From Pseudoxanthomonas koreensis (lineage in GTDB: Bacteria > Pseudomonadota > Gammaproteobacteria > Xanthomonadales > Xanthomonadaceae): a stretch of 64,000 bases of DNA. Location: assembly GCF_010093225.1 (NCBI RefSeq), contig NZ_PDWM01000014.1, positions 1-64,000 on the forward strand, in the 5' to 3' direction. The notes under the pieces are model-generated. The model searched no databases. It had not been told where the DNA came from and saw nothing but the letters and a program-made list of their open reading frames with translations. Shown piece by piece: positions 34,145-50,530 of the stretch (position 1 is its first letter; the number at the start of each line of letters is the position of its first letter). The translations under genes and the position numbers were made by a program.

Positions 34145-34972
34145 CTACCGCACCGCGCAGCGTTGCTGACCAGCGCCTGCATCCTGGCCTGTCGCCGGGC
34201 CATCGACGGCTTCGGCCAGTGCCGGCCCGACCAGGACCACGCCCGGCTGCCCCATCTCGAACGCATGCGGCGACCGCGCCAGCGCACGCAGTGGCAACAC
34301 GTGACGGCGCTCACCCTGCTGGCTGGCCGCCTGCACGACAGCCACCGGCGTATCGGCCGGCAGGTGCCGCAGCAGAGACGCGGCGATCGCATCGATGCGA
34401 CCCATTCCCATATAGATCGCCAGGGTGGTGGCGGCGCGGCACAGCGCCTCCCAGTCCGGCTCGCCATGGTCGGCGGTGTGCGCGGTGACGAAGGTGACGC
34501 CGTGGCAATGCCCGCGGTGGGTCAGCGATACGCCCAGCGAGGCGGCCGCGGCGAAGGCGGCGCTGACGCCGTTGACGATGCGCACCGGCACGCCGGCCGC
34601 GCGCAGGAACGCGATCTCCTCGCCGGCGCGGCCGAACAGCAGCGCATCGCCGCCCTTGACCCGGACCACGCGCAGGCCCTGCAGCGCGTAGCGGCGCATC
34701 AGCCGGCAGATGAAGGCCTGCGGCGTGGACCGGCAGCCGCCGCGCTTGCCCACGCGCACCACGCGTGCGTGCGGGGCCAGCCCGACGATGTCCGGATCGA
34801 CCAGTTCGTCCAGCAACAGCACCTCGGCGCACTGCAGCGCGCGCACCGCCTTGAGGGTGAGCAGTTCCAGGTCGCCCGGGCCGGCGGAGAGCAGCACCAC
34901 TTCGGCCGGGATACGGCGCGGGGCGGCAGTGCCGTTCGTGTCGATGGCCATCGGCGTCTCCGTCGGGTTCAT
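34145..34972 (-). CDS. cobA: Uroporphyrinogen-III C-methyltransferase
   Basis: A 275-residue SAM-dependent methyltransferase that makes precorrin-2, the first step to siroheme. Motifs are VVLLSAGPGDLELLTLKA, RVKGGDALLFGR and GVSAAFAAAASLGVSLTHRG. Siroheme is the cofactor of NirB, and the gene overlaps nasA by 4 bp as the last gene of the assimilation operon. The oxidase/ferrochelatase activity of CysG is missing here and must come from elsewhere. Confidence 0.93.
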   Translation of the reverse strand: MNPTETPMAIDTNGTAAPRRIPAEVVLLSAGPGDLELLTLKAVRALQCAEVLLLDELVDPDIVGLAPHARVVRVGKRGGCRSTPQAFICRLMRRYALQGLRVVRVKGGDALLFGRAGEEIAFLRAAGVPVRIVNGVSAAFAAAASLGVSLTHRGHCHGVTFVTAHTADHGEPDWEALCRAATTLAIYMGMGRIDAIAASLLRHLPADTPVAVVQAASQQGERRHVLPLRALARSPHAFEMGQPGVVLVGPALAEAVDGPATGQDAGAGQQRCAVR

Positions 34973-37752
34973 GCGCTGGCCGCCTCGCGGGCCAGGCGGG
35001 TGAGCTGGGGAATGCAGGAGCCGCAGACCGTGCCGCAGCCCAGCTTCTGCTTGAGCGCCGGCACGTCCGCGCCGCGGCCGACCTCGGCGCGGATCGCCGA
35101 TTCGGTGACCTGCCGGCACACGCACACCAGCGGGTCGCGCGCGACGTCGGCCAGCGCCGAGAACGCGGCCAGCCGCGGCCCGCGCCACGCCGCGCCGGAC
35201 AGCGCGGTGCGCAGCAGCGCGTCGCCGCCGGGCTGCGCGTCGGTCCACAGCAGGCCGTCGATGAAATGCTGGCCGGCGTCGTCGCGCCAGGCCACGCGCT
35301 TGAGCAGGCCGCGGCGGACGTCGCGGTATTCGAGCGTGTCGGCGCCGGCGGCCAGGGCCAGTGCCGCGTCCAGCGCCTGCAGCCAGGCCGCCGGCCTCGC
35401 CTCGGCCGCCGCCGCGCGCAGCACCAGCCAGGCGATGCCTTCGGGCGCGTCGGCCTCGGCCTGCAGCGACAGGCCGGCATAGCCGCAATCCCGGAGCAGC
35501 GGCTGCACCGCCTCGCGCATCGCCAGCACATCGCCGCGGCGCGCGGCCAGCAGATGCCAGCCGAACGGCGCCGGTTCCACCCGCACTGCCGCGTGCTTGA
35601 GCTCGGGCTGGCGCGAACGCGCGTCCACCGCCGGCAGGCTGACTTCGTTGATGCCGCCGCTGGACAGGTGCTGCCCGTTCCAGTGCATCGCCGCGAACAC
35701 GGTCCCCGAGCCGACCTCGTCGGACAGTTCCAGCGGCAGCACCAGTTCGCCGCGCTTGCTGCTCACCCGGACCAGTTCGCCCGCCTTCAAGCCGCGCCGC
35801 GCCGCGTCGTCCGGATGCATGCGCAGGCCCGGCTCGGGGCTGTGCGCGAACAGTCCCGGCACCCGCCCGGTGCGCGACATGCCGTGCCACTGGTCGCGCA
35901 GGCGGCCGGTCAGCAGGTGCAGCGGGAAGCGCGCCGATGTCGGTTCGGCCACCGGCCGGTAGGGCGTGGCGTGGAAGCGGGCGCGGCCGTCGGCGGTGGC
36001 GAACACGCCATCGGCGTAGCGCCGCGCCTGGCCGTGCGCGCTGCCGGCGGGAAACGGCCACTGCTGCGGGCCGTCGGCTTCCAGCCGGGCGTAGTCGAGG
36101 CCGCCGATGTCCAGGTCGCGGCCGACGGTGAGCGCGCGGTGTTCGTCGAACACCTGCGCCGGCGTTTCGGCCTCGAACAGCGACGCGGCGCCGGGCGCGG
36201 CCAGCCGCGCCTCGATCCGGCGCGCGACCTCGCGCACGATCCACCCGTCCGGCCTGGCCTGCCCCGGCGCGGCCACCGCCGCGCGCACCCGCGAGATGCG
36301 CCGCTCGGAATTGGTGACCGTGCCTTCCTTCTCGCCCCAGGTCGCCGCCGGCAGCAACGCGTCGGCGTAGGGCACGGTGTCGGTGCCGGTGAACGCTTCC
36401 TGCACGATCACGTACTCGGCGCGCTGCAGCGCCTCGCGCACCTGGCCGATGTCGGGCATGGAGTGGACCGGGTTGGTGCAGGCGATCCACACCGCCTTGA
36501 CCTTGCCGGAACGCACGGCGTCGAACAGTTCCACCGCCGCCAGCCCGGGCCGCGGCGACAGCGTGCCGGGGGCCAGCTTCCACAGCGCCTCGACCTCGGC
36601 GCGGTGCGCGGGATCGTCGATCTCGCGGTGCGCGGCCAGCATCGTGGCCATGCCGCCGACCTCGCGCCCGCCCATCGCGTTGGGCTGGCCGGTGAGCGAG
36701 AACGGGCCGGCGCCGGGGCGGCCAAGCTGACGGGTGGCCAGGTGCAGGTGGATCAGCGCCAGGTTCTTGTCGGTGCCGTGCGCGGACTGGTTCAGGCCCA
36801 TGCAGTACAGCGACAGCGCCGCCGGGCTGCGGCCGAACCATTCGGCGGCGGTGACCAGGTCCTGCGCGGGGATGCCGCAGATCTCCGCCGACATGCGCGG
36901 GGTGTACTCGCGCAGCAGGTTTTTCAGTTCGGCGAAGCCGGTGGTGTGCGCGTCGATGAACGCCTGGTCCAGCAGGCCCTCCCACACCAGGTGGTGGAGC
37001 ATGCCGTTGAACAGGGCCACGTCGGTGCCCGGCTGGATCGGCAGGTGCAGGTCGGCCATCGCCGCGGTGTCGGTGCGGCGCGGGTCGACCACGATCCAGC
37101 GCACGTCCGGGTCGGCCGCCTTCGCCGCCTCCAGCCGGCGGAACAGCACCGGGTGCGCGTAAGCGGCATTGCTGCCGGCGAACAGCACCGTCTTCGCGTG
37201 TTCCAGGTCCTCGTAGCAGGTGGGCGGGCCGTCGGTGCCGAAGGCCAGTTTGTAGCCGGCGACCGCGCTGGACATGCAGAGGCGCGAATTGGTGTCGATG
37301 TTGTTGGTGCCCAGCAGGCCCTTGGCCAGCTTGTTGAAGACGTAGTAGTCCTCGGTCAGCAGCTGGCCGGACAGGTAGAACGCCACCGCGTCCGGGCCGT
37401 GGCGCTCGACGATCCCGGCCAGGCGCTCGGCCACCGTGTCCAGCGCCAGCGACCAGTCCACCGGCCGCCGCGCATCCTGGCGGTGGTTGCGCAGCTCCGG
37501 CCACAGCGCGCGCCCGTGCAGGCTGCGCGCGCTGTCGGCCAGGGCGCGGCCCTTGCTGCACAGGCGGCCGAAGTTGGCAGGATGCTGCGGGTCGCCTTCC
37601 ACCCCGGTGATGCGTCCGCGGCCGTCGCCGCCGTGCTCGCTGTGCACCAGCACGCCGCAGCCGACGCCGCAGTAGCAGCAGGTCGAAGGCGTGGTGCGGC
37701 GCTGCACGCCCGCGGCGCCGGCCTCGCCCGCCGGGACGCCGGCGCCATCCAT
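34969..37752 (-). CDS. nasA: Assimilatory nitrate reductase catalytic subunit
   Basis: A 927-residue molybdopterin enzyme that reduces nitrate in the cytoplasm. The N-terminal [4Fe-4S] motif CCYCGVGCGV, the MGD-binding blocks and the ligand Cys region SRLCMSSAVAGYK are seen. An added C-terminal BFD-type [2Fe-2S] domain (about residues 860-920, CVCRQVTES and CGTVCGSC) should receive electrons. There is no signal peptide. The gene overlaps nirD by one base and cobA by four. Confidence 0.95.
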   Translation of the reverse strand: MDGAGVPAGEAGAAGVQRRTTPSTCCYCGVGCGVLVHSEHGGDGRGRITGVEGDPQHPANFGRLCSKGRALADSARSLHGRALWPELRNHRQDARRPVDWSLALDTVAERLAGIVERHGPDAVAFYLSGQLLTEDYYVFNKLAKGLLGTNNIDTNSRLCMSSAVAGYKLAFGTDGPPTCYEDLEHAKTVLFAGSNAAYAHPVLFRRLEAAKAADPDVRWIVVDPRRTDTAAMADLHLPIQPGTDVALFNGMLHHLVWEGLLDQAFIDAHTTGFAELKNLLREYTPRMSAEICGIPAQDLVTAAEWFGRSPAALSLYCMGLNQSAHGTDKNLALIHLHLATRQLGRPGAGPFSLTGQPNAMGGREVGGMATMLAAHREIDDPAHRAEVEALWKLAPGTLSPRPGLAAVELFDAVRSGKVKAVWIACTNPVHSMPDIGQVREALQRAEYVIVQEAFTGTDTVPYADALLPAATWGEKEGTVTNSERRISRVRAAVAAPGQARPDGWIVREVARRIEARLAAPGAASLFEAETPAQVFDEHRALTVGRDLDIGGLDYARLEADGPQQWPFPAGSAHGQARRYADGVFATADGRARFHATPYRPVAEPTSARFPLHLLTGRLRDQWHGMSRTGRVPGLFAHSPEPGLRMHPDDAARRGLKAGELVRVSSKRGELVLPLELSDEVGSGTVFAAMHWNGQHLSSGGINEVSLPAVDARSRQPELKHAAVRVEPAPFGWHLLAARRGDVLAMREAVQPLLRDCGYAGLSLQAEADAPEGIAWLVLRAAAAEARPAAWLQALDAALALAAGADTLEYRDVRRGLLKRVAWRDDAGQHFIDGLLWTDAQPGGDALLRTALSGAAWRGPRLAAFSALADVARDPLVCVCRQVTESAIRAEVGRGADVPALKQKLGCGTVCGSCIPQLTRLAREAASA

Positions 37753-38120
37753 CAGGCCGCGGCCTCCGTGGCCCCGGCGTCCGCGTCCGCAGCCACGGCC
37801 AGCGAAAGCCACACCTCGCCGCCGCGCAGCTGCACCGGGTACCTGCGCGCGCAGCCCACGTCCGGGGCGCAGGCCTGGCCGCTGTCGAGCTGGATGTTCC
37901 AGCCGTGCAGCGGGCAGGTCACGGTGTCGCCGCTGACAATCCCCTGCGACAGCGGCCCGCCCTTGTGCGGGCAGCGGTCGGCCAGCGCGAACACGCGCGC
38001 GGCCGCCGGCCGGAACAGGGCGATGTTGTCGCCCTCGCCGCACTCCAGCACCCGCGACCCCAGCAGCGGGATCTCGTCGATCGCGCAGACGCGGACCCAG
38101 GCATCGTCCGTTGCGTCCAT
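37752..38120 (-). CDS. nirD: Nitrite reductase (NADH) small subunit
   Basis: A 122-residue Rieske-type protein. Two cluster motifs, CPHKGG and CPLHGW, keep the Cys and His ligands, so a true [2Fe-2S] center is likely; some NirD proteins have lost it. It pairs with NirB, whose gene ends 1 bp upstream. Confidence 0.92.
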   Translation of the reverse strand: MDATDDAWVRVCAIDEIPLLGSRVLECGEGDNIALFRPAAARVFALADRCPHKGGPLSQGIVSGDTVTCPLHGWNIQLDSGQACAPDVGCARRYPVQLRGGEVWLSLAVAADADAGATEAAA

Positions 38121-38121
38121 C

Positions 38122-40596
38122 TCAGTCCTCCAGGGCCACGGCGATGCGGCGGTCGGGCGGGGGTGCATCCAGTTTCAGTGGCGCGTACTCGCGCGCCTGG
38201 GTGCCGGCGATCCGCGCCGCCCACGGGTCGGGCAGGCCTTCCAGCGCGTACAGCAGGCGCTCGTACAGGGCGCGGCGGTTGCCTGCGTCCTCGACCACCT
38301 TGCGCTTGATGTAGTCCAGGCCGACGCGTTCGATGTAGTGCACGGTGCGGTCGAGGTAGTAGGCCTCCTCGCGGTACAGCTGCAGGAAGGCGCCGGTGTA
38401 TTCCTTCACCTCGTCCGGCGTCTTCACCTTGACCAGGAAGCGCGCGACCTCGGTCTTGATCCCGCCGTTGCCGCCGACGTGGATCTCCCAGCCCGAGTCC
38501 ACGGCGATGATGCCCACGTCCTTGATCCCCGATTCGGCGCAGTTGCGCGGGCAGCCGGACACCGCCAGCTTGACCTTGTGTGGGCTCCACATGTTGGCGA
38601 GCATCGTTTCCAGGTCGATGCCCATCTGCGTGCTGTTCTGGGTGCCGAAGCGGCAGAACTCGCTGCCCACGCAGGTCTTCACCGTGCGGATCGACTTGCC
38701 GTAGGCGTGGCCGGAGTTCATGCCCAGGTCCTTCCACACGCCGACCAGGTCCTCCTTCTTCACCCCGAGCAGGTCGATGCGCTGGCCGCCGGTGACCTTG
38801 ACCATCGGGATGGCGTACTTGTCGGCCACGTCGGCGATGCGGCGCAGCTCGCCGGCGTTGGTGACGCCGCCCTTCATCTGCGGGATCACCGAGAAGGTGC
38901 CGTCCTTCTGGATGTTGGCGTGGGCGCGCTCGTTGATGAAGCGGCTCTGCGGGTCGTCCACCGCCTCGCGCGGCCAAGTCGAGAGCAGGTAGTAGTTGAT
39001 CGCCGGGCGGCAGGTGGCGCAGCCGTTGGGCGTGCGCCATTCCATGAAGGCGTAGGCCTGGGCGTGGCTGACCAGGTGGTGCCCGCGGATGGCCTGGCGC
39101 ACCTCGCCGTGGCTGAGCGTGGTGCAGCCGCACACCGCCTTGGTCTTCGGCGTCTCCTGGAAGTTGGAACCCAGGCAGTTCATCAGGATCTGCTCGACCA
39201 GGCCGGTGCACGAGCCGCAGGAGCTGGCTGCCTTGGTCTGCTTCTTGACGTCGTCGACCGTGAACAGGCCCTGTTCGCGGATCGCCCGGACAATGGTGCC
39301 CTTGCACACGCCATTGCAGCCGCAGACCTCGTCGCTGTCGGCCATGCTCGCGGCACGGTCCTGGCCGGCGGTTCCGGCGTCGCCCAGGGCGGTCTCGCCG
39401 AAGGCCAGGGTGTCGCGGCGGTCGCCGACCGCGCTGCCGTCCTTGATCTGCTTGAAGTACCAGGCACCGTCGCCGGTATCGCCGTACAGGCAGGCGCCGA
39501 CCAGCCTGTCGTCCTTGATCACCAGCTTCTTGTACATGCCGCCGGCCGGGTCGGAGAGCACGATCTCCTCGGTGCCCTCGCCGCCCATGAACTCGCCGGC
39601 CGAGAACAGGTCGATGCCGGTGACCTTGAGCTTGGTCGACACCGCCGAGCCCTTGTAGATGCCGATGCCGTAGGTAGCCAGGTGGTTGGCGCAGATCTTC
39701 GCCTGCTCGAACAGCGGCGCGACCAGGCCGTAGGCGATGCCGCGGTGGGCGGCGCATTCGCCCACCGCGTATACGCGCGGGTCGTAGGTCTGCAGGGTGT
39801 CGTTGACCACGATGCCGCGGTTGCAGTGGATGCCCGCAGCCTGGGCCAGGGTGGTGTTGGGGCGGATGCCGGCGGCCATCACCACCAGCTCGGCGGGGAT
39901 CTCCTCGCCGTCGGAGAAGCGCACTGCGCTCACCTCGCCGGCCTCGTTGCCGAGGATCGCGGTGGTGGAGGTGTTGAGGCGGAACGACAGCCCACGCTCG
40001 GCCAGCGACTTCTGCAGCAGCGCACCGGCCATCGGATCGAGCTGGCGCTCCAGCAGCCAGCCGGCCAGATGCACGACGGTCACTTCCATCCCGCGCAGCT
40101 TCAGGCCGTTGGCCGCCTCCAGCCCGAGTAGGCCGCCGCCGATCACCACCGCATGCTTCTTCACCCTGGCGGTGTCGATCATGGTCTGCGTGTCGTGGAT
40201 GTCGCGGTAGCCGATCACGCCTTTCAGGTCGTTGCCCGGCACCGGCAGGATGAAGGGCACCGAGCCGGTGGCCAGCAGCAGGCGGTCGTACTCCGCTTCG
40301 GTGCCGTCGGCAGCGATGACCTTGCGGCGCACGCGGTCGATCGTGGTGACTTCCTTGCCCAGGTGCAGGGTGATGCCGTTGTCGGCGTACCAGGACAGCG
40401 GGTTGAGCACGATCTCGTCGAAGGCCTGCTCGCCGGCCAGCACCGGCGAGAGCAGGATGCGGTTGTAGTTCGGGTGCGGCTCGGCACCGAACACGGTGAT
40501 TTCGTACATGTCCGGCACCAGCTTCAGCAGCTCCTCGAGCGTGCGGATGCCGGCCATGCCGTTGCCCACCACCACCAGTCCTGGCTTCTTCATCAT
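38122..40596 (-). CDS. nirB: Nitrite reductase (NADH) large subunit
   Basis: An 824-residue siroheme enzyme that reduces nitrite to ammonium with NADH. An FAD/NAD domain (about 1-300, VVVGNGMAGIRTLEEL and AVVIGGGLLGLEAANGLK) is followed by BFD-type domains (CGCNGVCKG, CGSC) and the sulfite-reductase-like core with CVGSEFC and CPRNC ligating the coupled siroheme-[4Fe-4S]. The ATG at 40596 has AAGGGGAA upstream. It is the second gene after the transporter. Confidence 0.95.
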   Translation of the reverse strand: MMKKPGLVVVGNGMAGIRTLEELLKLVPDMYEITVFGAEPHPNYNRILLSPVLAGEQAFDEIVLNPLSWYADNGITLHLGKEVTTIDRVRRKVIAADGTEAEYDRLLLATGSVPFILPVPGNDLKGVIGYRDIHDTQTMIDTARVKKHAVVIGGGLLGLEAANGLKLRGMEVTVVHLAGWLLERQLDPMAGALLQKSLAERGLSFRLNTSTTAILGNEAGEVSAVRFSDGEEIPAELVVMAAGIRPNTTLAQAAGIHCNRGIVVNDTLQTYDPRVYAVGECAAHRGIAYGLVAPLFEQAKICANHLATYGIGIYKGSAVSTKLKVTGIDLFSAGEFMGGEGTEEIVLSDPAGGMYKKLVIKDDRLVGACLYGDTGDGAWYFKQIKDGSAVGDRRDTLAFGETALGDAGTAGQDRAASMADSDEVCGCNGVCKGTIVRAIREQGLFTVDDVKKQTKAASSCGSCTGLVEQILMNCLGSNFQETPKTKAVCGCTTLSHGEVRQAIRGHHLVSHAQAYAFMEWRTPNGCATCRPAINYYLLSTWPREAVDDPQSRFINERAHANIQKDGTFSVIPQMKGGVTNAGELRRIADVADKYAIPMVKVTGGQRIDLLGVKKEDLVGVWKDLGMNSGHAYGKSIRTVKTCVGSEFCRFGTQNSTQMGIDLETMLANMWSPHKVKLAVSGCPRNCAESGIKDVGIIAVDSGWEIHVGGNGGIKTEVARFLVKVKTPDEVKEYTGAFLQLYREEAYYLDRTVHYIERVGLDYIKRKVVEDAGNRRALYERLLYALEGLPDPWAARIAGTQAREYAPLKLDAPPPDRRIAVALED

Positions 40597-40675: not shown

Positions 40676-41884
40676 TCAGACCCGGGCCGCGCCCGGCTGG
40701 GCCCAGTGCAGGCGCCAGCGCTGCTTGACCCCGACCAGGCACAGCGATGCGGCCAGCGCGATGCCGGCGAACAGCCACAGGCCCGGCGCGTAGGAACCGG
40801 CGTGCTGCCTGGCCACGCCCAGCCCGGCCGCAAGCAGGAAACCGCCGACGCCGCCGGCCATCCCGATCAGGCCGGTCATCAGGCCGATCTCGGCGCCGAA
40901 ACGCTGCGGCACCAGCTGGAACACCGCGCCGTTGCCTGCGCCCAGGCACAGCAGGGTCAGCACGAACAGCGCCACCGTCGCCACCGGTCCGCCGATCCCC
41001 AGCGCCGCGGTGGCGACCAGTGCGGTGACCGCGACGTACACCATCTGCAGCGAGCGCGTACCGCCGATGCGGTCGGCGATCACGCCGCCGAGCGGACGCA
41101 TCAGCGATCCCGCCAGCACGCAGGCGGCGGTGGCCCAGCCGGCGACCTTCGGCGCGAAGCCGAACTCGTCGTGGAAATAGCCCGGAAGCGCGCTGGCGAA
41201 CCCGGCGAAGCCGCCGAAGGTGATCGCGTAGAAGAACATGAACCACCACGAGTCGCGGTTGCCGACCAGGGCCCGCGCGTAGTCGCCCAGGGTCTTGCGC
41301 GCGACCGGTACCGGCGCATCCCTGGCACAGGCGGCGAAGATCGCCAGCACCACCAGCAGCGGGATCGCGGCCAGGCCGAATACGTTCTGGAAGCCGAAGG
41401 CGGTGGCCAGCACCGGTGCGAAAAGGGCCGCGAACACCGTGCCCGAGTTGCCGGCACCGGCAATGCCCATCGCCGTGCCCTGGTGTTCGGGCGGATACCA
41501 GCGCGAGGCCAGCGGCAGCGCCACCGCGAACGAGGCACCGGCCACGCCGAGCATCGCGCCCAGCAACAGCGCCTGGCCGAAGCTGTGCACGCCCAGCCGC
41601 CACGCGGCGAGCAGCGCCAGGATCACCACCCCCTGCGCGAGCAGGCCGGTACGCCTGGCGCCGATGCGGTCGGCCAGCAGGCCGAGGAACAGCCGCAGCA
41701 CCGCGCCGCACAGGATCGGCACGGCGACCATCAGCGCGCGCTGCTGGGTATCGAGCTGCAGCGCCTGCGCGATCTGCACCTGCAACGGGCCGAGCAGGTA
41801 CCAGACCATGAAGCTCATGTCGAAGTAGAGGAACGCCGACAGCAGGGTGGGTGCGTGCCCGGCTTTCCAGAACGATCGATTCAT
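40676..41884 (-). CDS. MFS nitrate/nitrite transporter (NarK/NasA type)
   Basis: A 402-residue, 12-helix transporter of the nitrate/nitrite porter family. The signatures AGAGNSGTVFAALFAP and GAGNGAVFQLVPQRF are the family's two glycine-rich nitrate motifs. As first gene of the assimilation operon it should import nitrate for NasA. GGAGATGG lies before the ATG. The leader from the predicted sigma54 start is about 79 nt. Confidence 0.9.
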   Translation of the reverse strand: MNRSFWKAGHAPTLLSAFLYFDMSFMVWYLLGPLQVQIAQALQLDTQQRALMVAVPILCGAVLRLFLGLLADRIGARRTGLLAQGVVILALLAAWRLGVHSFGQALLLGAMLGVAGASFAVALPLASRWYPPEHQGTAMGIAGAGNSGTVFAALFAPVLATAFGFQNVFGLAAIPLLVVLAIFAACARDAPVPVARKTLGDYARALVGNRDSWWFMFFYAITFGGFAGFASALPGYFHDEFGFAPKVAGWATAACVLAGSLMRPLGGVIADRIGGTRSLQMVYVAVTALVATAALGIGGPVATVALFVLTLLCLGAGNGAVFQLVPQRFGAEIGLMTGLIGMAGGVGGFLLAAGLGVARQHAGSYAPGLWLFAGIALAASLCLVGVKQRWRLHWAQPGAARV

Positions 41885-41972
41885 CGGCAGCCATCTCCGG
41901 AAGTGGGGTGCGGCGGTTGGCGCAGGCACGATGCGTGCGCAGGCACGCCGTCGCGCCTTCACGATGCTGCAA

Positions 41973-41989
41973 TGCAATGCCCATGCCAG
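41973..41989 (-). promoter_or_regulatory. Sigma54 promoter of the nitrate assimilation operon
   Basis: On the minus strand CTGGCATGGGCATTGCA fits YTGGCAYG-N4-TTGCW at every fixed base. The predicted start is near 41962, 78 bp before the transporter ATG. Confidence 0.85.
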
Positions 41990-42099
41990 AACCTGACGCG
42001 GTGCAGCAACGCGCTCGAAAGCCACATGGAATCAGGTACTTGTCGCACCCCGCACGGCGCCGGCCGATGGCCCTGGCGCACCCTCGTGGCGAACTGCAG

Positions 42100-42116
42100 T
42101 GCACCGCCTGGGTGCA
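42100..42116. promoter_or_regulatory. NtrC enhancer site
   Basis: TGCACCGCCTGGGTGCA is a perfect TGCACC-N5-GGTGCA palindrome, the NtrC consensus. Its centre is 146 bp upstream of the predicted sigma54 start, a usual enhancer distance. The rest of the 357-bp gap (41885-42241) shows no gene; a weak second half-site may lie at 42077-42092. Confidence 0.85.
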
Positions 42117-42241
42117 AAGCGCACTGCGAACGTGCATCACCGGCCTGGCGTCGCACGCGCACCGGATAGTGGCTCCGGCTTCCATTCACCCGGCAATACG
42201 GACCTGCGCGCCTCCCCTCCCGGGGAAGCCCGCCCGCTGCG

Positions 42242-42676
42242 TCACAGGTGGAACATCGCCTTGGCCAGGAACGTGATCGCGAGGACGTGCAGCAGCACGC
42301 TGCGGTGCAGCCAGTGCGAACGGCGGCCGGAGAGGCGGCCGCGGCGCTGCCAGGCCATCGCCAGCAGGAAATGGCCGAAAACGCTGGCCGCCAGCGCGAT
42401 CTTGATCGACAGCAGCAGGCCGAATGTGCTCGCCAGCGGCTGCGCCAATGCGCCGCGGTGGTGCCAGGCCAGGCCCAGGCCGGCCGTGTACAGCACCAGC
42501 AGCACCCAGGGCATCACCCGCCGCGCCTGCGCGGCGAAGGCCGCTTCCAGCCGCACGCCCACCGCCGCGGGCAGGCGCCGGCGCACGCCCGGCAGGAACA
42601 GCACCTCCACCAGCACCGTGCCGATGAAGGCGATGGCGGCCAGCAGGTGGAGCAGCAGCAGCGGCAGGTAGGCCAT
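42242..42676 (-). CDS. CopD-like four-helix membrane protein
   Basis: A 144-residue protein with four predicted helices and His residues near their ends (LLLHLLAAIAFIG, AWHHRG, VFGHFLLAM, SVLLHVL). The pattern resembles the CopD/HemJ type of membrane protein, which binds copper or heme. It is divergent from hemN across an FNR box. In a region with copper nitrite reductase and heme enzymes either metal role is possible; the function is unknown. Confidence 0.65.
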   Translation of the reverse strand: MAYLPLLLLHLLAAIAFIGTVLVEVLFLPGVRRRLPAAVGVRLEAAFAAQARRVMPWVLLVLYTAGLGLAWHHRGALAQPLASTFGLLLSIKIALAASVFGHFLLAMAWQRRGRLSGRRSHWLHRSVLLHVLAITFLAKAMFHL

Positions 42677-42794
42677 GGCACCAGCGTGGACGCAACGATG
42701 TGGCTGCGCCTTGATCCCGGTCAGGCGCGCATGCGGGCGCGCACGCACCGGCATGACCACGCCCGCTTCGGCGGCGATGGTACGACCGCCCGGA

Positions 42795-42808
42795 TTGACC
42801 TGCATCAA
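42795..42808 (+). promoter_or_regulatory. FNR box of hemN
   Basis: TTGACCTGCATCAA fits TTGAY-N4-ATCAA. TAGCCT at 42831-42836 is at the -10 distance of a class II FNR promoter. The predicted start, near 42843, falls at the hemN ATG. Confidence 0.8.
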
Positions 42809-42843
42809 GGACAGGCCAGGCGTACGGTCCTAGCCTGTGCTCC

Positions 42844-44244
42844 ATGGCCAGTCTCTCCGCCCTCTTCGACCCGCAGCTGCTCCAGCGCTACGACGTGCCG
42901 GGGCCGCGCTATACCTCGTATCCGACCGCGCCGCAGTTCTCGCCCGGCTTCGGCGAGGCCGAGCTGCGCAAGGTCGCCGCGGAGAGCAACGGCGATCCGA
43001 TCCCGCGGCCGATCTCGCTGTACCTGCACATCCCGTTCTGCACCAGCCCGTGCTTCTACTGCGGCTGCAACCGGATCATCACCCGCGACAAGACCCGCGG
43101 CGCCGCGTACCTGACCCGGCTGTACCGCGAGATCGCCATGGCTTCGTCCATGTTCGACCGCGACCGCGACGTGGAGCAGGTGCATTTCGGCGGCGGCACG
43201 CCCAACTTCCTCGACCCGGAGCAGATCGCCGAGGTGGTGGACGTGCTGCGCCGGCACTTCACCTTCGCCCGCCGCTCGAAGATGGACTGTTCGATCGAGC
43301 TGGACCCGCGCTTCATCACCCCTGGCAAAGTCGGCCAGTTGGCCGAGGCCGGCTTCAACCGCGCCAGCCTGGGCGTGCAGGACTTCGACCCGGTGGTGCA
43401 GGAAGCGGTCAACCGCGTGCAGGGCGTGGAGCAGACCCTGGGAATTATTGACGCGTGCCGACGGCACGGTTTCCGCTCGGTCAACGTCGACCTGATCTAC
43501 GGCCTGCCGAAGCAGACCCTGGAAGGCTTCTCGCGCACCCTGGACATCACCCTGCAGGCGCGCCCGGACCGGCTGGCGATCTACGGCTACGCGCACCTGC
43601 CCAACCTGTTCCGCCCGCAGCAGCGCATCAACGCCGCCGACCTGCCCTCGGCGCAGGCCAAGCTGGACCTGCTGCGCCTGGCGATCGACAAGCTCGGCGC
43701 CGCCGGCTACGAGTACATCGGCATGGACCACTTCGCCCTGCCCGAGGACGAGCTGGCGCGCGCGCAGCGCGACGGCAGCCTGCACCGCAACTTCATGGGC
43801 TACACCACCCACGCCGAAAGCGACCTGCTGGGCCTGGGGGTGAGCGCGATCAGCCACATCGGCGCCAGCTTCAGCCAGAACCCGCGCGACCTCCCCGGCT
43901 GGGAGCACGCGATCGACGCCGGCCGCCTGCCGGTGTGGCGCGGCATGGAGATGGACCCGGACGACGTGATCCGCGCCGACGTGATCCAGTCGCTGATGTG
44001 CCATGGTGAGCTGGATTTCGAGGTGGTGGGCCGCCGCCACGTGATCGATTTCCGCGACTATTTCCGCGATTCGCTGGCGCGGCTGGCGCCGCTGCAGGAC
44101 GACGGCCTGGTCGAAGTGGACCGCCGCGGGCTGCACGCGACCTCGCGCGGGCGGCTGTTGCTGCGTATCATTGCCATGTGCTTCGACCGCTATCTCACCC
44201 CGGCCGCCGACGCGGCATCGCCCCGGTATTCGCGCACCGTCTGA
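42844..44244 (+). CDS. hemN: Oxygen-independent coproporphyrinogen III oxidase
   Basis: A 466-residue radical-SAM enzyme that makes protoporphyrinogen IX without oxygen, needed for cytochromes under denitrification. The cluster motif is CTSPCFYCGC, with the extra Cys typical of true HemN, and FGGGTPNFL follows. The length matches E. coli HemN (457). No ribosome site is seen before the ATG, and the predicted transcript begins at the start codon. The regulator gene follows 19 bp downstream. Confidence 0.95.
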   Translation: MASLSALFDPQLLQRYDVPGPRYTSYPTAPQFSPGFGEAELRKVAAESNGDPIPRPISLYLHIPFCTSPCFYCGCNRIITRDKTRGAAYLTRLYREIAMASSMFDRDRDVEQVHFGGGTPNFLDPEQIAEVVDVLRRHFTFARRSKMDCSIELDPRFITPGKVGQLAEAGFNRASLGVQDFDPVVQEAVNRVQGVEQTLGIIDACRRHGFRSVNVDLIYGLPKQTLEGFSRTLDITLQARPDRLAIYGYAHLPNLFRPQQRINAADLPSAQAKLDLLRLAIDKLGAAGYEYIGMDHFALPEDELARAQRDGSLHRNFMGYTTHAESDLLGLGVSAISHIGASFSQNPRDLPGWEHAIDAGRLPVWRGMEMDPDDVIRADVIQSLMCHGELDFEVVGRRHVIDFRDYFRDSLARLAPLQDDGLVEVDRRGLHATSRGRLLLRIIAMCFDRYLTPAADAASPRYSRTV

Positions 44245-44263
44245 TCCTGGCGGAGAGGCGCGC

Positions 44264-45022
44264 ATGAACCCGTCGGGCGTCGTCTTCCCGCGCACCGGCC
44301 CCGGCGTGATGGCCGACGACGGCGATGCGCTGACTTTCTGCTCCACCTGCGCCTTTTCCCAGGCCTGCCTGTCGCAGGGCATGGACAAGAGCGCGCTGAT
44401 GGACCTGCACGTGCTGGTCGAGCACGTCGGCCCGCTGCACCCGGGCGAACACCTGTTCCGCGAGGGCGATCCGTTCACCGCGATCGCCGCGGTGCGCGCC
44501 GGCACGGTCAAGACCTACCAGATCGACCGCAACGGGCATGAACAGGTACTGGGCTTCCACCTGCCCGGCGAAGTGATCGGGCTCAACGGCATCCACGACG
44601 ACCGCTACCCGTGCAATGCGGTGGCGCTGGACACGGTGATGCTGTGCCGGTTCTCGTTCCCGAAGATCGCCCTGCTCGCCGCGCGCCTGCCCAACCTGCA
44701 GCAGCACCTGTTCCGGCTGATGAGCCGCGACATCGGCGTGGCTTCGCTGTTCGCCCGCGACAACACCGCCGACGAGCGCATGGCCGCGTTCCTGATCGGC
44801 CTGTCGCGGCGGCTGGCCGCGCGCGGGTTCTCGCCGCGGCGGTTCCAGCTGACCATGTCGCGCACCGACATCGCCAACTACCTGCGCCAGGCCCCGGAGA
44901 CGGTCAGCCGCGTGCTGCGCCGCTTCGAGACCGAAGGCCTGCTGCACATCAAGCAGCGCGACGTGGAGATCGTGGACATGCCGCGGCTGGAAGCCCTGGC
45001 CCTGGCGGTCCTGCGCGAGTAG
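44264..45022 (+). CDS. fnr: FNR-family anaerobic regulator
   Basis: A 252-residue CRP/FNR protein. Cysteines C26, C29 and C35 have the C-x2-C-x5-C spacing of FNR, and C117 stands for the fourth ligand, so an oxygen-labile [4Fe-4S] cluster is expected. The helix-turn-helix has ETVSR, the E-x2-SR recognition set for TTGAT-N4-ATCAA. Many such boxes lie in the next 20 kb. GGAGAGG precedes the ATG at 44264. It forms an operon with hemN. Confidence 0.93.
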   Translation: MNPSGVVFPRTGPGVMADDGDALTFCSTCAFSQACLSQGMDKSALMDLHVLVEHVGPLHPGEHLFREGDPFTAIAAVRAGTVKTYQIDRNGHEQVLGFHLPGEVIGLNGIHDDRYPCNAVALDTVMLCRFSFPKIALLAARLPNLQQHLFRLMSRDIGVASLFARDNTADERMAAFLIGLSRRLAARGFSPRRFQLTMSRTDIANYLRQAPETVSRVLRRFETEGLLHIKQRDVEIVDMPRLEALALAVLRE

Positions 45023-45058
45023 CCCCCGGCCCCGGGCCGGCACCCCGCCTGCCCGCGC

Positions 45059-45133
45059 TGCGCCCTGCGCTCTGTGCACTTGCACCCTGCACCCTTGCGC
45101 CCTGTGCGCTTGCGCGCTGCGCCCTGCGCTCCC
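45059..45133 (+). repeat. Degenerate 15-bp tandem repeat
   Basis: Five units of about 15 bp in a row, such as TGTGCACTTGCACCC, TGCACCCTTGCGCCC and TGTGCGCTTGCGCGC. The array runs from shortly after fnr to the left arm of the palindromic repeat that follows. No function is known. Confidence 0.6.
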
Positions 45134-45264
45134 TGTAGGAGCCCGCATGAGGGCGACCCGGTGGCGCCGGAAGGCGGCATCGTTCAACGCGCCGGGTCCG
45201 GAAGATCGCGTTGACCGCCGCGTGTCCGGGCCACGCGGGGTCGCCCTCATGCGGGCTCCTACAG
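45133..45264. repeat. Palindromic GTAG (SMAG/REP-like) element
   Basis: Two perfect 27-bp inverted arms (45133-45159 and 45238-45264), each containing GTAGGAGCCCGCATGAGGGC or its complement, enclose 78 bp. The GTAG start is the hallmark of the SMAG elements of Stenotrophomonas and related REPs. With the tandem repeat it fills the 334-bp gap between fnr and norB. Confidence 0.75.
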
Positions 45265-45280
45265 GGGAAGCGGGCGCGGC

Positions 45281-45294
45281 TTGACCTGTGTCAT
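45281..45294 (+). promoter_or_regulatory. FNR box of norB
   Basis: TTGACCTGTGTCAT matches the FNR pattern except at the last base. GATGAT at 45318-45323 is a suitable -10, giving a start near 45329 and a 28-nt leader. Confidence 0.75.
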
Positions 45295-45356
45295 GGAGGG
45301 CCGCGGCCGCGCGGGCCGATGATGCGGGCGTTTCCCCGCAGCGAGAGAGCCACGCC

Positions 45357-47654
45357 ATGAATTCCACCCGCAAGCTTTGGGCAGGCCTGGCGGTCCTGCT
45401 CATCGCCTCGTTCGCCGCCCTGCTATGGGTGGGCAGCGAGATCCACCGCCAGGCGCCACCGATGCCCGAACAGGTGGTCACCACCGACGGCACCGTGGTC
45501 TACACCCGCAAGGACATCGAGACCGGCCGCCAGGTGTGGCAGTCGATCGGCGGCCAGCAGCTGGGCTCGATCTGGGGCCACGGCGGCTACGTCGCCCCGG
45601 ACTGGGGCGCGGACTGGCTGCACCGCGAGGCCGAAGCGGTCCTCGACACCTGGGCCGCGCGCGAGCACGGCGTGGACAGCTACAAGACCCTGGATGCCGC
45701 CACCCAGGCCGCCTACACACAGCGCGTGCAGGCCCTGCTGCGGCCCAACACCTACGACGCGGCCACCGGCACCATCACCATCGACGCCGACCGCGCCGAG
45801 GCGATGGCCAAGGTCGCCGCGCACTACCAGCTGCTGTTCGGCAACGATCCGTCCACGGCGGAACTGCGCGAGGCCTATGCCATGCGCAACGACACCGTGC
45901 CCGACGCCGAACACCGCCGCCAGCTCACCGCGTTCTACTGGTGGGCCGCCTGGTCCTCGGTGACCCAGCGTCCGGGCGCGGACATCACCTACACCGCCAA
46001 CTGGCCGCACGACGAGCTGGTCGGCAACACCCCGCCGTCGAACCTGTTCATGTGGACGGTGTTCAGCGTGCTGTTCCTGATCGCCGGCATCGGCCTGCTC
46101 GGCTGGCACTACGCGGTCAGCCACGGCGAAGAAATGGTGCCGGTGCTGCCCAAGAGCGACCCGCTGGCCGCGATCAAGGTCACCCCGTCGATGCGCGCCA
46201 CCGCCAAGTACTTCTGGGTGGTGATCGCGCTGTTCCTGGTGCAGATCCTGCTGGGCGCGACCACCGCGCACTACCAGGTCGAGGGCCAGGAGGCCTACGG
46301 CTTCGCCCTGGCCGAGATCCTGCCCTACTCGCTGACCCGCACCTGGCACACCCAGCTGGCGGTGCTGTGGATCGCCACCGCCTGGCTGGGCATGGGCCTG
46401 TACATCGCCCCGGCGATCTCCGGGCACGAGCCGAAGTTCCAGCGCCTGGGGGTGAACTTCCTCTGGACCTGCCTGATCGTGATCGTGGTCGGTTCCTTCG
46501 CCGGGCAGTGGTTCGCGGTGATGCAGAAGCTGGGCCTGGACAAGAACTTCTGGTTCGGCCACCAGGGCTGGGAGTACGTGGACCTGGGCCGGTTCTGGCA
46601 GTGGTTCCTGTTCATCGGCCTGCTGCTGTGGCTGACCCTGGTCGGCCGCGCACTGTGGCCGGCGATGCGCAAGGGCGCCGAGTCGCGCTCGATCGTCAGC
46701 CTGCTGTTCCTGTCGGTGGTGGCGATCGGCATCTTCTACTCGGCCGGCCTGATGTGGGGCGAGCACAGCCACCTGTCGATGGTCGAGTACTGGCGCTGGT
46801 GGGTCGTACACCTGTGGGTCGAGGGCTTCTTCGAGGTGTTCGCGGTGGCGGTGATCGCCTTCCTGTTCACCCGCCTGGGCCTGCTGCAGGTGAAGTCGGC
46901 CACGATCGCGGTGCTGTTCGCCACGATCATCTTCATGGCCGGCGGCGTGCTTGGCACCCTGCACCACCTGTACTTCACCGGTACGCCGACGGCGGTGATC
47001 GCCCTGGGCGCGAGCTTCTCGGCGCTGGAAGTGGTGCCGCTGGCCTATGTCGGCTTCGAGGCCTACCACAACTACAAGCTGGGCAAGGCGACTCCGTGGA
47101 TGGCCAGGTACAAGTGGCCGATCATGTTCTTCCTGGCGGTGTCGTTCTGGAACCTGGTGGGCGCCGGCCTGTTCGGCTTCCTGATCAACCCGCCGCTGCC
47201 GCTGTACTACATGCAGGGCCTGAACCTGACCGCCAACCATGGCCACACCGCGATGTTCGGCGTGTACGGCATGCTCGGCATCGGCCTGATGCTGTTCTGC
47301 CTGCGCGGGCTGAAGCCTGACCTGGTGTGGAGCGAGCGGCTGCTGAAGACTTCGTTCTGGTCGCTCAACATCGGCCTGGCCGGAATGTCGCTGCTCACGC
47401 TGCTGCCGCTGGGCATCCTGCAGCTCAACGCGGCGATCGACAACGGCTACTGGTACGCGCGTTCGGCCGAGTTCATGCAGCAGCCGATCGTGGACCTGCT
47501 GGTGTGGATGCGGGTACCGGCCGACACGCTGTTCAGCGTCGGCGCGCTGGCACTGGCCTGGTTCGTGTTCCGGCTGTGGGTGTCGCCGAAGCGGGAAGCG
47601 CCGGTGCCGTCGGCGACCGCGGTTGCCGCGGCGGCGATCGTGCCGAAGCACTGA
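45357..47654 (+). CDS. norB: Quinol-dependent nitric oxide reductase
   Basis: A 765-residue single-subunit qNor that reduces two NO to N2O with quinol. The N-terminal extension replaces NorC: one helix, then a large periplasmic part (about 40-220, WQSIGGQQLGSIWGHG). The catalytic core keeps the heme and FeB histidines in RTWHTQLAVLW, LHHLYFTG and NHGHTAMFG. No norC is present. The ATG at 45357 has GAGAGAG upstream. A strong terminator follows. Confidence 0.95.
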   Translation: MNSTRKLWAGLAVLLIASFAALLWVGSEIHRQAPPMPEQVVTTDGTVVYTRKDIETGRQVWQSIGGQQLGSIWGHGGYVAPDWGADWLHREAEAVLDTWAAREHGVDSYKTLDAATQAAYTQRVQALLRPNTYDAATGTITIDADRAEAMAKVAAHYQLLFGNDPSTAELREAYAMRNDTVPDAEHRRQLTAFYWWAAWSSVTQRPGADITYTANWPHDELVGNTPPSNLFMWTVFSVLFLIAGIGLLGWHYAVSHGEEMVPVLPKSDPLAAIKVTPSMRATAKYFWVVIALFLVQILLGATTAHYQVEGQEAYGFALAEILPYSLTRTWHTQLAVLWIATAWLGMGLYIAPAISGHEPKFQRLGVNFLWTCLIVIVVGSFAGQWFAVMQKLGLDKNFWFGHQGWEYVDLGRFWQWFLFIGLLLWLTLVGRALWPAMRKGAESRSIVSLLFLSVVAIGIFYSAGLMWGEHSHLSMVEYWRWWVVHLWVEGFFEVFAVAVIAFLFTRLGLLQVKSATIAVLFATIIFMAGGVLGTLHHLYFTGTPTAVIALGASFSALEVVPLAYVGFEAYHNYKLGKATPWMARYKWPIMFFLAVSFWNLVGAGLFGFLINPPLPLYYMQGLNLTANHGHTAMFGVYGMLGIGLMLFCLRGLKPDLVWSERLLKTSFWSLNIGLAGMSLLTLLPLGILQLNAAIDNGYWYARSAEFMQQPIVDLLVWMRVPADTLFSVGALALAWFVFRLWVSPKREAPVPSATAVAAAAIVPKH

Positions 47655-47679
47655 CAGCGGTTGCAGCGATGGGGGGGGG

Positions 47680-47711
47680 CCGGGGCCGCGCGAGCGGCCC
47701 CGGTTTTTTTT
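47680..47711 (+). terminator. Rho-independent terminator after norB
   Basis: A 10-bp stem CCGGGGCCGC/GCGGCCCCGG with the loop GCGA is followed by eight T. Confidence 0.92.
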
Positions 47712-47796
47712 ATTCTTCGGAGGCAAGAGCGTACGCCCCGGTCGGTGCGTCGCGTTCGAAGGCGCCAAAGCTCTCGGCTCCGGCGGGGGCCGCCGC

Positions 47797-47890
47797 ACCC
47801 TGGGTATATGACCCACCCTTCGGGACGACATCCTGTCTTTACTCAGGGCCGTGGCACATCCATGTGCCACTTGGGCCATATACCCAGGGT
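47797..47890. repeat. Nested palindromic intergenic element, copy 1
   Basis: Outer arms ACCCTGGGTATATG (47797-47810) and CATATACCCAGGGT (47877-47890) are perfect inverted copies. Inside lies a second palindrome, GTGGCACATCCATGTGCCAC (47851-47870). Confidence 0.8.
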
Positions 47891-47965
47891 ACGGCGTCCT
47901 TCGCGATCTTTTAGGGCGTGGCTTCTATTGGCCTTCGGCCAGCGGCACGGCCATGTGTTGCGCTT

Positions 47966-47995
47966 TTGTAGAGCGGGGCAAGCCCCGCTCTACAA
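47966..47995. repeat. REP-type GTAG hairpin
   Basis: Perfect 14-bp arms TTGTAGAGCGGGGC and GCCCCGCTCTACAA with a 2-base loop. The GTAG motif again recalls REP elements mobilised by RAYT transposases. Confidence 0.75.
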
Positions 47996-48104
47996 GAGAC
48001 AACCGCGTGCGTTTGATCGGAGCCACGCCCCAACAGGGCCAACCGCGCACTGCGGTCCGGCGGGGACAACAGAAACCGTGGACTCAACGCCGCGACAGGA
48101 CGTC

Positions 48105-48202
48105 GTTCTGTCGCATTGGGGGTCGAGCGGCACATGGATGTGCCGCGCTCGCGAACTGGGCAGGGACGCCGACGTGAGCGACGGCCCCCAGTGCGGCAGA
48201 AC
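48105..48202. repeat. Nested palindromic intergenic element, copy 2
   Basis: Outer arms at 48105-48125 and 48182-48202 match in 18 of 21 positions as inverted copies. The inner palindrome GCGGCACATGGATGTGCCGC (48127-48146) resembles that of copy 1, and the size is nearly the same (98 and 94 bp). Confidence 0.75.
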
Positions 48203-48342
48203 GGCGGCCCCCGCCGAAGCCGACGCTTCTCGAGCTTTTCGTGCTTTCCAGGCCCCGCCCCAACGCACCCGGCAATCGGGAGAAGAGTCCCGGCTGCCCG
48301 CGCACGGTGCAGCGCGTAGACTCGTGCACGGCTGCCGCTGGC

Positions 48343-48356
48343 CTGACCTGGGTCAA
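48343..48356 (+). promoter_or_regulatory. FNR box of nnrS
   Basis: CTGACCTGGGTCAA fits the FNR pattern with one weak base in the left half. A class II promoter would start near 48391. Confidence 0.7.
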
Positions 48357-48411
48357 GGCACGGCCAGGCCGGCTGGCACAGACTGCCTCCATGCACATCG
48401 AGGTCGCTCCC

Positions 48412-49650
48412 ATGCCCCCTGCGCGGCGTCCTGCCGCCTCACCCCGCTGGCTGGCGCACGCGCCGCACCGGCTGATGTTCTTCGTCGGCGCGTCCAACGT
48501 GCTGCTGGCGATGCTGTGGTGGGCGCTGTGGCTGGCGTCGGTGCGCTGGGGCCTGTGGACCATGCCGCAGCTGGCGATCCCGCCGGGCTGGCTGCACGCC
48601 TTCCTGATGCAGTACCTGGTGCTGCCCAGCTTCATCTTCGGCTTCCTGCTGACCGTGTTCCCGCGCTGGATGGGCCTGCCCGACCTCAAGCGCTGGCATT
48701 ACGTGCCGGTGGGGCTGGGGCTGATGGGCGGCCAGCTGGCGATCCTGCTCGGCGCCGCCGGCTGGGAAGCGGGGCTGACCGTGGGCCTGTGGATGGCGCT
48801 GGGCGGCTGGACCGCGGGGCTGGCGATCCTGGGCCGGCTGCTGGCCGACGAGAAGGGCAAGACCTGGCATGCGCGTTCGTGCTTCGCCGCGCTGGTGCTG
48901 GGCTGGCTGGGCATCGCCATGTTCATCGCCTTCGTGCTTGGTACCGATGCGCGCTGGGCGTTCGCCAGCATCAAGCTCGGCGGTTTCGGACTGCTGCTGC
49001 CGGTGTACGTGACCGTGGCCCATCGCATGTTCCCGTTCTTCGCCGGCAACGCGGTGCCCGGTTACAGGGCGTGGCGGCCGCTGTGGCTGCTGGGCGCGGT
49101 GTGGGTGCTGGTGATGCTGCACCTGGGCCTGGAGCTGGTGCATGCCTACGCCTGGCTGTGGCTGGCCGACGCGCCGTTGCTGGCGCTTACCGGTTACGCG
49201 GTGTGGCGCTGGTGGCCGCGCCGCCTCGCCGGCGGGCCGCGCATGCCGGGACTGCTGGCGGTGCTGTTCATCGGCACGGCGTGGCTGCCGGTCACTTTCG
49301 CGCTGTACCTGGCGCAGAGCCTGTCCTACCTGCTGGGTGGTGAATTCATCCTCGGCCGCGCGCCGATGCATGCGCTGTTCGTCGGTTTCTTCGGCAGCGT
49401 GCTGGTGGCGATGGTCACGCGGGTGACGCAGGGTCATTCGGGCCGGCCGCTGCGGATGTACGGCATCGCCTGGTTCGCCTTCGTGGCGATCCAGGTGGTG
49501 GCGACCGTGCGCATCCTCGCCGACGTGCTGCCCGACCCGGGCCTGTGGCAGGCCGTGGCCGCGGTCGGCTGGCTGCTGGCGCTGTCGCCGTGGGTGGCGC
49601 GGATCGGCCACATCTACCTGACCCCGCGACGCGACGGACGGCCCGGTTGA
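48412..49650 (+). CDS. nnrS: NnrS family membrane protein
   Basis: A 412-residue protein with about 12 membrane helices and the NnrS pattern (APHRLMFFVGASNVLLAMLWW split as APHRLMFF and GASNVLLAMLWW; VAHRMFPFF; GRAPMHALFVGFFGSVLVAM). NnrS is a heme- and copper-containing protein that protects cells from nitric oxide and accompanies nitrite and NO reductases. The ATG at 48412 is preferred to one at 48391, because the predicted transcript begins near 48391 and CGAGG lies before the later ATG. Confidence 0.88.
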   Translation: MPPARRPAASPRWLAHAPHRLMFFVGASNVLLAMLWWALWLASVRWGLWTMPQLAIPPGWLHAFLMQYLVLPSFIFGFLLTVFPRWMGLPDLKRWHYVPVGLGLMGGQLAILLGAAGWEAGLTVGLWMALGGWTAGLAILGRLLADEKGKTWHARSCFAALVLGWLGIAMFIAFVLGTDARWAFASIKLGGFGLLLPVYVTVAHRMFPFFAGNAVPGYRAWRPLWLLGAVWVLVMLHLGLELVHAYAWLWLADAPLLALTGYAVWRWWPRRLAGGPRMPGLLAVLFIGTAWLPVTFALYLAQSLSYLLGGEFILGRAPMHALFVGFFGSVLVAMVTRVTQGHSGRPLRMYGIAWFAFVAIQVVATVRILADVLPDPGLWQAVAAVGWLLALSPWVARIGHIYLTPRRDGRPG

Positions 49651-49672
49651 GGCGCAGGGAAACGCGAACCGC

Positions 49673-50074
49673 ATGATCACCTTCTACCCCGACATCAAGC
49701 TGGTCCACATCGCCTCGGCGCTGGCCAGCGGCGCATTCTTCGCCCTGCGCGCGCTGGCCCTGCTGGCCGGCATGCGCTGGCCGCGGCTGGCACCGGTGCG
49801 CTACCTGAGCTACACCATCGACACGGCGCTGCTGACCGCCGCGCTCATGCTGCTGACGATCCTGCCCAGCGGTCTGTTCGCCAACGGCTGGCTGTGGGTG
49901 AAGCTGCTGTTCGTGGCCGCGTACGTGGTGCTGGGCATCCTCGCGTTCCGCCGCGAACGCCGCGGCGCGGCGCGCGCGATGCTGGTAGTGGGCGCGGGGC
50001 TGTGCTTCCTGCAGGTCTACGGCATCGCCCGCTTCCACCATCCGCTGGGCTGGTTGCTGTTGCTGGGAGGATGA
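49673..50074 (+). CDS. SirB2-like membrane protein
   Basis: A 133-residue protein with four predicted helices and the SirB pattern (IKLVHIASALASGAFFALRAL, given here as IKLVHIASALAS; YLSYTIDTALLTAALML). SirB-type genes often accompany nnrS and nor genes; the function is unknown. It starts 23 bp after nnrS and is the second gene of a four-gene unit. Confidence 0.8.
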   Translation: MITFYPDIKLVHIASALASGAFFALRALALLAGMRWPRLAPVRYLSYTIDTALLTAALMLLTILPSGLFANGWLWVKLLFVAAYVVLGILAFRRERRGAARAMLVVGAGLCFLQVYGIARFHHPLGWLLLLGG

Positions 50075-50077
50075 GCC

Positions 50078-50236
50078 ATGGGTGGACTGCACGACATCGC
50101 GCTGCCGGAAGCGGCCTGCCCGCAGGCGGGATGCCTGCTCGAATCGATGGACGCGGCCGGCATGTCCCTGGACTGCGGCGTGGAACACGGCAGCGACGAC
50201 GACGCGTTCGACCTCGTGGAAGACGACACACCATGA
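50078..50236 (+). CDS. Small acidic Cys-containing protein, unknown
   Basis: A 52-residue frame, not recognised. GGGAGG stands 7 bp before its ATG, and its stop overlaps the next gene by ATGA, so it is probably translated. The sequence has three Cys (CPQAGC and LDCGVEHG) and an acidic tail (GSDDDAFDLVEDD). It has no signal or membrane segment. The cysteines might bind metal (inference). Confidence 0.6.
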   Translation: MGGLHDIALPEAACPQAGCLLESMDAAGMSLDCGVEHGSDDDAFDLVEDDTP

Positions 50237-50487
50237 CCGCACTGCACCTGGACCTGCGCGACCGCCCGCCGCCGGAGCCGATGGAGCGCATCCTCGAAAC
50301 CCTGCGCCTGCTGCCGCCCGGCTGGCACCTGGTCGCGCTGACGCCGATGCGGCCGCTGCCGCTGCTGCCGTTGCTCGACGCGGACGGCTTCGCCTGGCGC
50401 ATGCGCGACCTGGTCCAGGGCGGCGCCGCGCTCACCATCTGCCGCAACGACGAACGCCACCTGCTGGACGCCACGGGCGACGGGTAA
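50233..50487 (+). CDS. DUF2249 domain protein
   Basis: An 84-residue protein that is almost wholly a DUF2249 domain (LDLRDRPPPEPMERILETL at the start, LTICRNDERHLL at the end). DUF2249 belongs to the SirA/TusA-like fold and is frequent in nitric-oxide and denitrification loci, but its biochemistry is unknown. It ends the nnrS-sirB2 unit and is translationally coupled to the gene before it. Confidence 0.8.
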   Translation: MTALHLDLRDRPPPEPMERILETLRLLPPGWHLVALTPMRPLPLLPLLDADGFAWRMRDLVQGGAALTICRNDERHLLDATGDG

Positions 50488-50489
50488 GC

Positions 50490-50527
50490 GGCCGGGAGGT
50501 GGCGGGCCTGTCGCCCGCCACCCGGCC
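50490..50527. terminator. Hairpin between DUF2249 gene and porin
   Basis: A long interrupted stem, with GTGGCGGGC (50499-50507) pairing GCCCGCCAC (50513-50521) and an outer GGCCGG/CCGGCC, lies between two convergent genes. No T run. Confidence 0.55.
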
Positions 50528-50530
50528 GGC

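Follow-up and report, generated by a model that had tools for sequence, protein, structure and literature searches.

Nitrate assimilation operon of Pseudoxanthomonas koreensis with predicted NtrC/sigma54-type control and a probable loss of the NasS-NasT antitermination layer

For the nirBD operon of Pseudomonas, a leader RNA designated NalA, the NasS-NasT pair and control via NtrC and sigma54 are described (PMC12830290). In the account of the nasTSABGHC cluster of Paracoccus denitrificans, nasTS is located upstream of the structural genes, together with a hairpin leader and general nitrogen control by NtrBC (PMC5424462). The nas operon of Klebsiella is reported to depend on NasR, which brings about ANTAR antitermination at the leader terminator (PMC3369931, PMC5424462). 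Both NasR and NasT are described as ANTAR proteins, and for the hexaloops of their target hairpins an A at position 1 and a G at position 4 are reported to matter for binding and induction (PMC3369931). An engineered nasT deletion of P. putida is termed 'nitrate-blind', loss of nasT alone abolishing growth on nitrate (PMC7261876), and for P. stutzeri A1501 a nasT mutant unable to grow on nitrate is mentioned as unpublished data (PMC8443478).

In this study, we analyzed an operon of the Pseudoxanthomonas koreensis genome located in a stretch of 64,000 nucleotides, referred to as the window. The operon shares with Pseudomonas nirBD the genes, the sigma54 promoter and NtrC as the presumed activator, and the close relatives of the window have both control layers, whereas the window is devoid of NasS, NasT and the terminator-bearing leader. 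Likewise, the layout in these relatives is that of the P. denitrificans cluster, and the nasTS layer appears to be lost in the window. The 12 close relatives used for comparison comprise 11 congeneric genomes and G032, a genome of another genus.

Homology and domain searches gave the gene order transporter-nirB-nirD-nasA-cobA on the minus strand, as had been predicted from the sequence, and the five genes, all of which are open, are presumably co-transcribed. The first one (40676..41884) encodes a NarK-type nitrate/nitrite MFS transporter, for which the best NCBIfam match was TIGR00886 with 265.7 bits, under the cut-off of 311.7. It is followed by nirB for the large subunit of NADH-nitrite reductase (38122..40569, delimited with a query beginning at an internal codon, so that the true start lies slightly upstream) and by nirD for the Rieske-type small subunit (37752..38168, homology search). 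The nasA gene (34969..37914, start not fixed) encodes a molybdopterin oxidoreductase with a C-terminal BFD-like domain, which is read as an assimilatory nitrate reductase from its domains and context. All its NCBIfam matches stayed under the cut-offs, including the best one to Fdh-alpha (509.2 bits) and those to two assimilatory nitrate reductase models (508.8 and 460.6 bits). Since the best matches of both transporter and reductase are below the curated cut-offs, these names rest on domains and context. The last gene (34145..34960) was identified by homology search as a cobA/cysG-type tetrapyrrole methylase. On the other side of the promoter region, the enhancer is adjoined by a gene for a small membrane protein without family match (42242..42676, minus strand), which we take to be CopD-like; in four of the 12 close relatives this gene lies between hemN and nasT, while the contig of one further relative (L052) begins too near to tell.

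Upstream of the transporter gene, the pattern scan detected a sigma54 -24/-12 promoter (TGGCATGGGCATTGCA; 41973..41988, minus strand) with the correct GG-N10-GC spacing, and an element is present at the same place in all 12 close relatives. The original prediction, according to which promoter and enhancer match the consensus without a mismatch, hinges for the promoter on the consensus chosen, as the strict and the loose form differ: the looser TGGCAYRNNNNTTGCW is matched exactly, with 41988..41973 (minus strand) as the sole match in 64 kb (mean of 0.04 expected; a match in 4 of 100 shuffles), whereas one mismatch separates TGGCATGGGCATTGCA from the strict TGGCAC-N5-TTGCW. The proximal NtrC-type site (42100..42116, pattern scan, similar sites in relatives) is likewise a perfect 6-5-6 palindrome when read as TGCACC-N5-GGTGCA, but has one mismatch to TGCACC-N4-TGGTGCA. 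The distance of 146 bp that had been given between promoter and enhancer applies from the predicted start site (~41962) to the enhancer center, while the enhancer is 128 bp away from the -24/-12 element. A distal NtrC-like site (TGCACGTTCGCAGTGCG; 42120..42136, minus strand), which had been overlooked, is located 20 bp further upstream, 148 bp from the -24/-12 element. In each of the 12 close relatives the sigma54 element is accompanied by at least one NtrC-like site 112-149 bp upstream, with a pair of sites in 10 relatives and a single one in two (L050 and L056). Among 80 wider loci, mostly from Pseudomonas and its relatives, the pattern scan found a sigma54 site in 37 and both sigma54 and NtrC sites in 19, so the promoter layout was not detected everywhere by these patterns.

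Profile searches revealed that NtrC (674.3 bits; cut-off 558.6) and RpoN (478 bits; cut-off 277.35) are encoded in the genome. TGCAC-N7-GTGCA occurs once in the window (42100-42116; mean of 0.22 expected, a match in 18 of 100 shuffles) and at three places in the genome, where by our own estimate from composition about three are expected; the backwards pattern is absent from the genome. The palindrome alone is therefore weak, and the weight is borne by its position and conservation. One of the three places lies inside an ORF that we take to be ccoG-like and one abuts the presumed ntrB, so that counts by themselves prove nothing. The latter gene precedes ntrC and is read by us as ntrB; a box (TGCACTAAATTGGTGCA; L147, position 22180 of G000:C3 in this genome) abuts its start, is identical in three of three relatives checked and looks like NtrC autoregulation. 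Together with the sites in 12 of 12 close relatives, the two encoded proteins support the proposed NtrC/sigma54 control, and the operon would thus depend on NtrC and RpoN. The nitrate-use genes are probably switched on by nitrogen shortage, as in the relatives. The predicted contrast to neighboring genes, nitrogen rather than oxygen driving the operon, is consistent with the distribution of FNR-like boxes: with up to one mismatch, 12 were found in the window against 1.23 expected, three of them exact, all on the hemN/norB side (42711-62617), and none lies between transporter and enhancer.

In all 12 close relatives, nasT and nasS are located upstream of the transporter gene on the same strand at a distance of up to about 3.7 kb; hemN, which was found in 9 of the 12 stretches, flanks them there. 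NasT of one relative (G003) contains a receiver and an ANTAR domain, and NasS is an NMT1-like binding protein. Each of the 12 leaders carries at least two hexaloop hairpins with A at position 1 and G at position 4, the loop being mostly AACGGC, and a terminator with a T-run. Over 92 loci, of which 91 are distinct because L060 and L051 (G008) are one record, a hairpin with the loop AACGGC and a stem of at least 4 was found in 85, versus 8 of 1840 shuffles; this is the stricter count, as the list of A1/G4 loops that covers 92 of 92 loci was drawn up after seeing the variants. Of the wider 80 loci, 73 have a T-run in the leader, and in the flanking stretches nasT was found in 66 and nasS in 62; a missing nasT or nasS may be located elsewhere or lie past the end of the contig.

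The hairpins are also supported by covariation. In 24 aligned leaders, 92.3% of cells in three hairpins were paired and both partners had changed in 10 of 17 pairs, compared with 33-49% paired and 1-3 such pairs in slid controls; one of the aligned rows had supplied the structure, which favors it somewhat. The alignment holds 24 rows (23 distinct) because L061, a leader with hexaloops and no sigma54 match, was left out; L064 lacks the first loop and L050 the second. In the third hairpin, variation is confined to one of its four pairs. Covariation supports the terminator less, since both partners had changed in 4 of 16 pairs and 28 of 500 shuffles reach this number. The 5' arm of the terminator overlaps the stem and loop of the third hairpin, so each excludes the other, as in the ANTAR mechanism described in PMC3369931. 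Versus Pseudomonas nirBD, an additional hexaloop hairpin is often located upstream as a third one in the leaders of the window's relatives; among the leaders L046-L096, three hexaloop hairpins are frequent, compared with the two described for ANTAR targets. The Rfam family RF03032 ('narK RNA') matches two Pseudomonas-type leaders (L105 and L109); at the gathering score it had no match in three leaders of the relatives with three hairpins that were scanned (L002, L006 and L056).

Two further observations were made in single genomes. G013 has a second hexaloop leader (L170; G013:C57:43903-44017, minus strand) that scores 90 bits with the leader model introduced below; it has its own sigma54-like element and precedes a gene which we presume to encode a formate/nitrite-transporter-like protein. 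NasT thus probably has a second target there. In L057 (G014:C1; completeness 57%), hemN, nasS, transporter, nirB and cobA match in several pieces, as does nasA with an out-of-frame query, which is perhaps due to sequencing errors.

In the window, the leader (41885..41972, minus strand) is shortened to 88 nt, compared with 156-208 nt in the 12 close relatives, and the sequence scan found no T-run, no terminator hairpin and no intact ANTAR hexaloop hairpin in it. A Shine-Dalgarno-like GGAG remains (41895..41898, minus strand; GGAGATGG common to several relatives). What is left of the hairpins is a decayed first one (41941..41958, minus strand; 7.9 bits, E 0.039), the best match when 1 kb was scanned without filters, with the loop GACGGC replacing AACGGC. 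Thereby, G stands at loop position 1 where 23 of 24 aligned relatives have A, and no paired A1/G4 hexaloop hairpin was found in the window leader. The fold z-score of the leader is -1.3, versus -3.5, -5.1 and -7.2 in three relatives. A search of window positions 33000-57000 with Rfam gave four matches up to E 5, all far under the gathering scores and none to narK RNA. For a search across genomes, a leader model was built from an alignment of 13 sequences outside the 17 genus genomes (12 contigs, and L056 from G032), which may be close to the genus, as three of the contigs are named Luteimonas. With the best 150 candidates per genome scored, all 11 operon-bearing congeners were matched with E 2.2e-12 or better, and this genome had no match at E 1.

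The absence of NasR- or NasT-type antiterminators, originally noted for the window, extends beyond it: since both are ANTAR proteins and the domain search of the whole genome found no ANTAR protein, the claim holds for the genome. A whole-genome search for NasS was negative as well, while both searches were positive in 11 of 17 genus genomes, and no nasT-nasS pair is located upstream of the transporter gene. A NIT-domain search gave no match anywhere, controls included, and therefore carries no weight. The full transporter is present in 12 of the 17 genus genomes (in pieces in G014), 11 of which have both regulators, this genome being the sole exception; the other five lack the full transporter (G012 with a partial match of 56 residues) and both regulators. 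For the family, 396 genomes were sampled evenly from a larger group, 95% being the minimum completeness requested; 65 of them contained the transporter and 77 an ANTAR protein. An ANTAR protein was found in 64 of the 65 transporter-bearing genomes, and the one without is this genome. As NasS, NasT and a terminator-bearing leader occur in 12 of 12 close relatives, the missing NasT is, judged from this comparison, a derived state.

From these data, the most likely reading is that NtrC/sigma54 control was kept and nitrate-responsive antitermination disappeared in two separate losses, one on either side of a promoter that stayed intact. Upon nitrogen shortage, phosphorylated NtrC would bind the two sites upstream of the -24/-12 element and activate sigma54-RNA polymerase, which would transcribe the operon. 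In the ancestor, as predicted for the close relatives, the transcript would have halted at the leader terminator unless NasT bound the hexaloop hairpins, nitrate or nitrite freeing NasT from NasS as a second layer. In this genome, one loss would have removed nasT-nasS on the upstream side of the enhancer, and a separate one the terminator together with the second and third hairpins on the downstream side of the promoter, with the promoter block left intact. Transcription would then read through the leader independently of nitrate, and the operon would be expressed on nitrogen shortage whether nitrate is present or not; most likely, it answers to nitrogen shortage alone. For this explanation as a whole, an NtrC/sigma54 operon minus the NasS-NasT and leader-terminator layer, we estimate a probability of roughly 85%.

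Other explanations concern the sites as well as the losses. Chance matches of both motifs in a GC-rich window would be conceivable for the NtrC palindrome by itself, given its genomic frequency close to the composition prediction and its presence in 18 of 100 window shuffles, but with only 0.04 promoter matches expected in the window and with position and spacing of the motifs kept in 12 of 12 close relatives this idea is already contradicted by conservation and has a negligible chance of being right. A different enhancer-binding protein or other regulator might bind the palindromes instead of NtrC, an idea that gains some room from the 39 matches of the ntrC model in the genome, which are mostly partial or under the cut-off; against this, the half-site is similar to the box conserved at the presumed ntrB start and the operon consists of nitrogen genes, which makes a different regulator quite improbable.

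As strong hairpins assemble poorly, it also had to be considered that nasT, nasS and the leader terminator are present in the organism and were collapsed or lost in the assembly. The 93 contigs and the very stable leader folds in relatives speak for such an artefact, which is nevertheless hardly probable in view of a completeness of 99.95%, the position of the region inside a contig of 70,664 bases, the finding of NasT and NasS nowhere in the genome, and the occurrence of two separate losses, along with an altered base in the first loop, within one unbroken sequence. Finally, the whole operon might be in decay, regulation having been lost since the pathway is no longer used. The full transporter is missing from 5 of 16 genus relatives, this genome is among the smaller ones, and nirB, nirD, nasA and cobA, four of the five operon genes, each show a nonsynonymous ratio slightly above that on the sister branch. 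However, all five reading frames are open, neither the promoter nor the enhancer is disrupted, and the summed substitutions, a crude branch count, are 115 synonymous and 92 nonsynonymous here and 131 and 91 on the sister, compared with 53 and 43 in control genes on the same branch and 78 and 66 on the sister. There is no clear excess of amino-acid changes in the operon on this branch, and decay is unlikely. Loss of the antitermination layer from a presumably functional operon remains our preferred reading, and it is rather probable that in one lineage NasS, NasT, the RNA hairpins and the terminator were removed by two separate events on both sides of the untouched NtrC/sigma54 promoter, turning a two-signal operon into a one-signal operon that still works.

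Compared with the described systems, the operon appears as a variant of a known one minus the nitrate-sensing layer, represented by one genome in 93 contigs. In Klebsiella, antitermination takes place at a leader terminator as predicted for the window's relatives; NasR has its own nitrate-sensing domain there, while no ANTAR protein was found in the genome studied here. The P. putida nasT deletion shares the absence of nasT with the window, in which the terminator is gone too, so that the operon is predicted to stay expressible, unlike in that deletion. As loss of nasT alone abolishes growth on nitrate in P. putida, the terminator was probably lost before or together with nasT. We found no description of a natural loss of NasS-NasT together with the terminator in the literature, in a search that is weak for subscription papers.

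The locus also illustrates that a statement such as 'no antiterminator nearby' needs testing against relatives and the whole genome. For the biology of these bacteria, the genome suggests a way round the loss of nasT, namely that the terminator is lost as well. Thereby, it may serve as a natural case for asking when nitrate-specific control pays, and whether an antiterminator and its target vanish in a fixed order.
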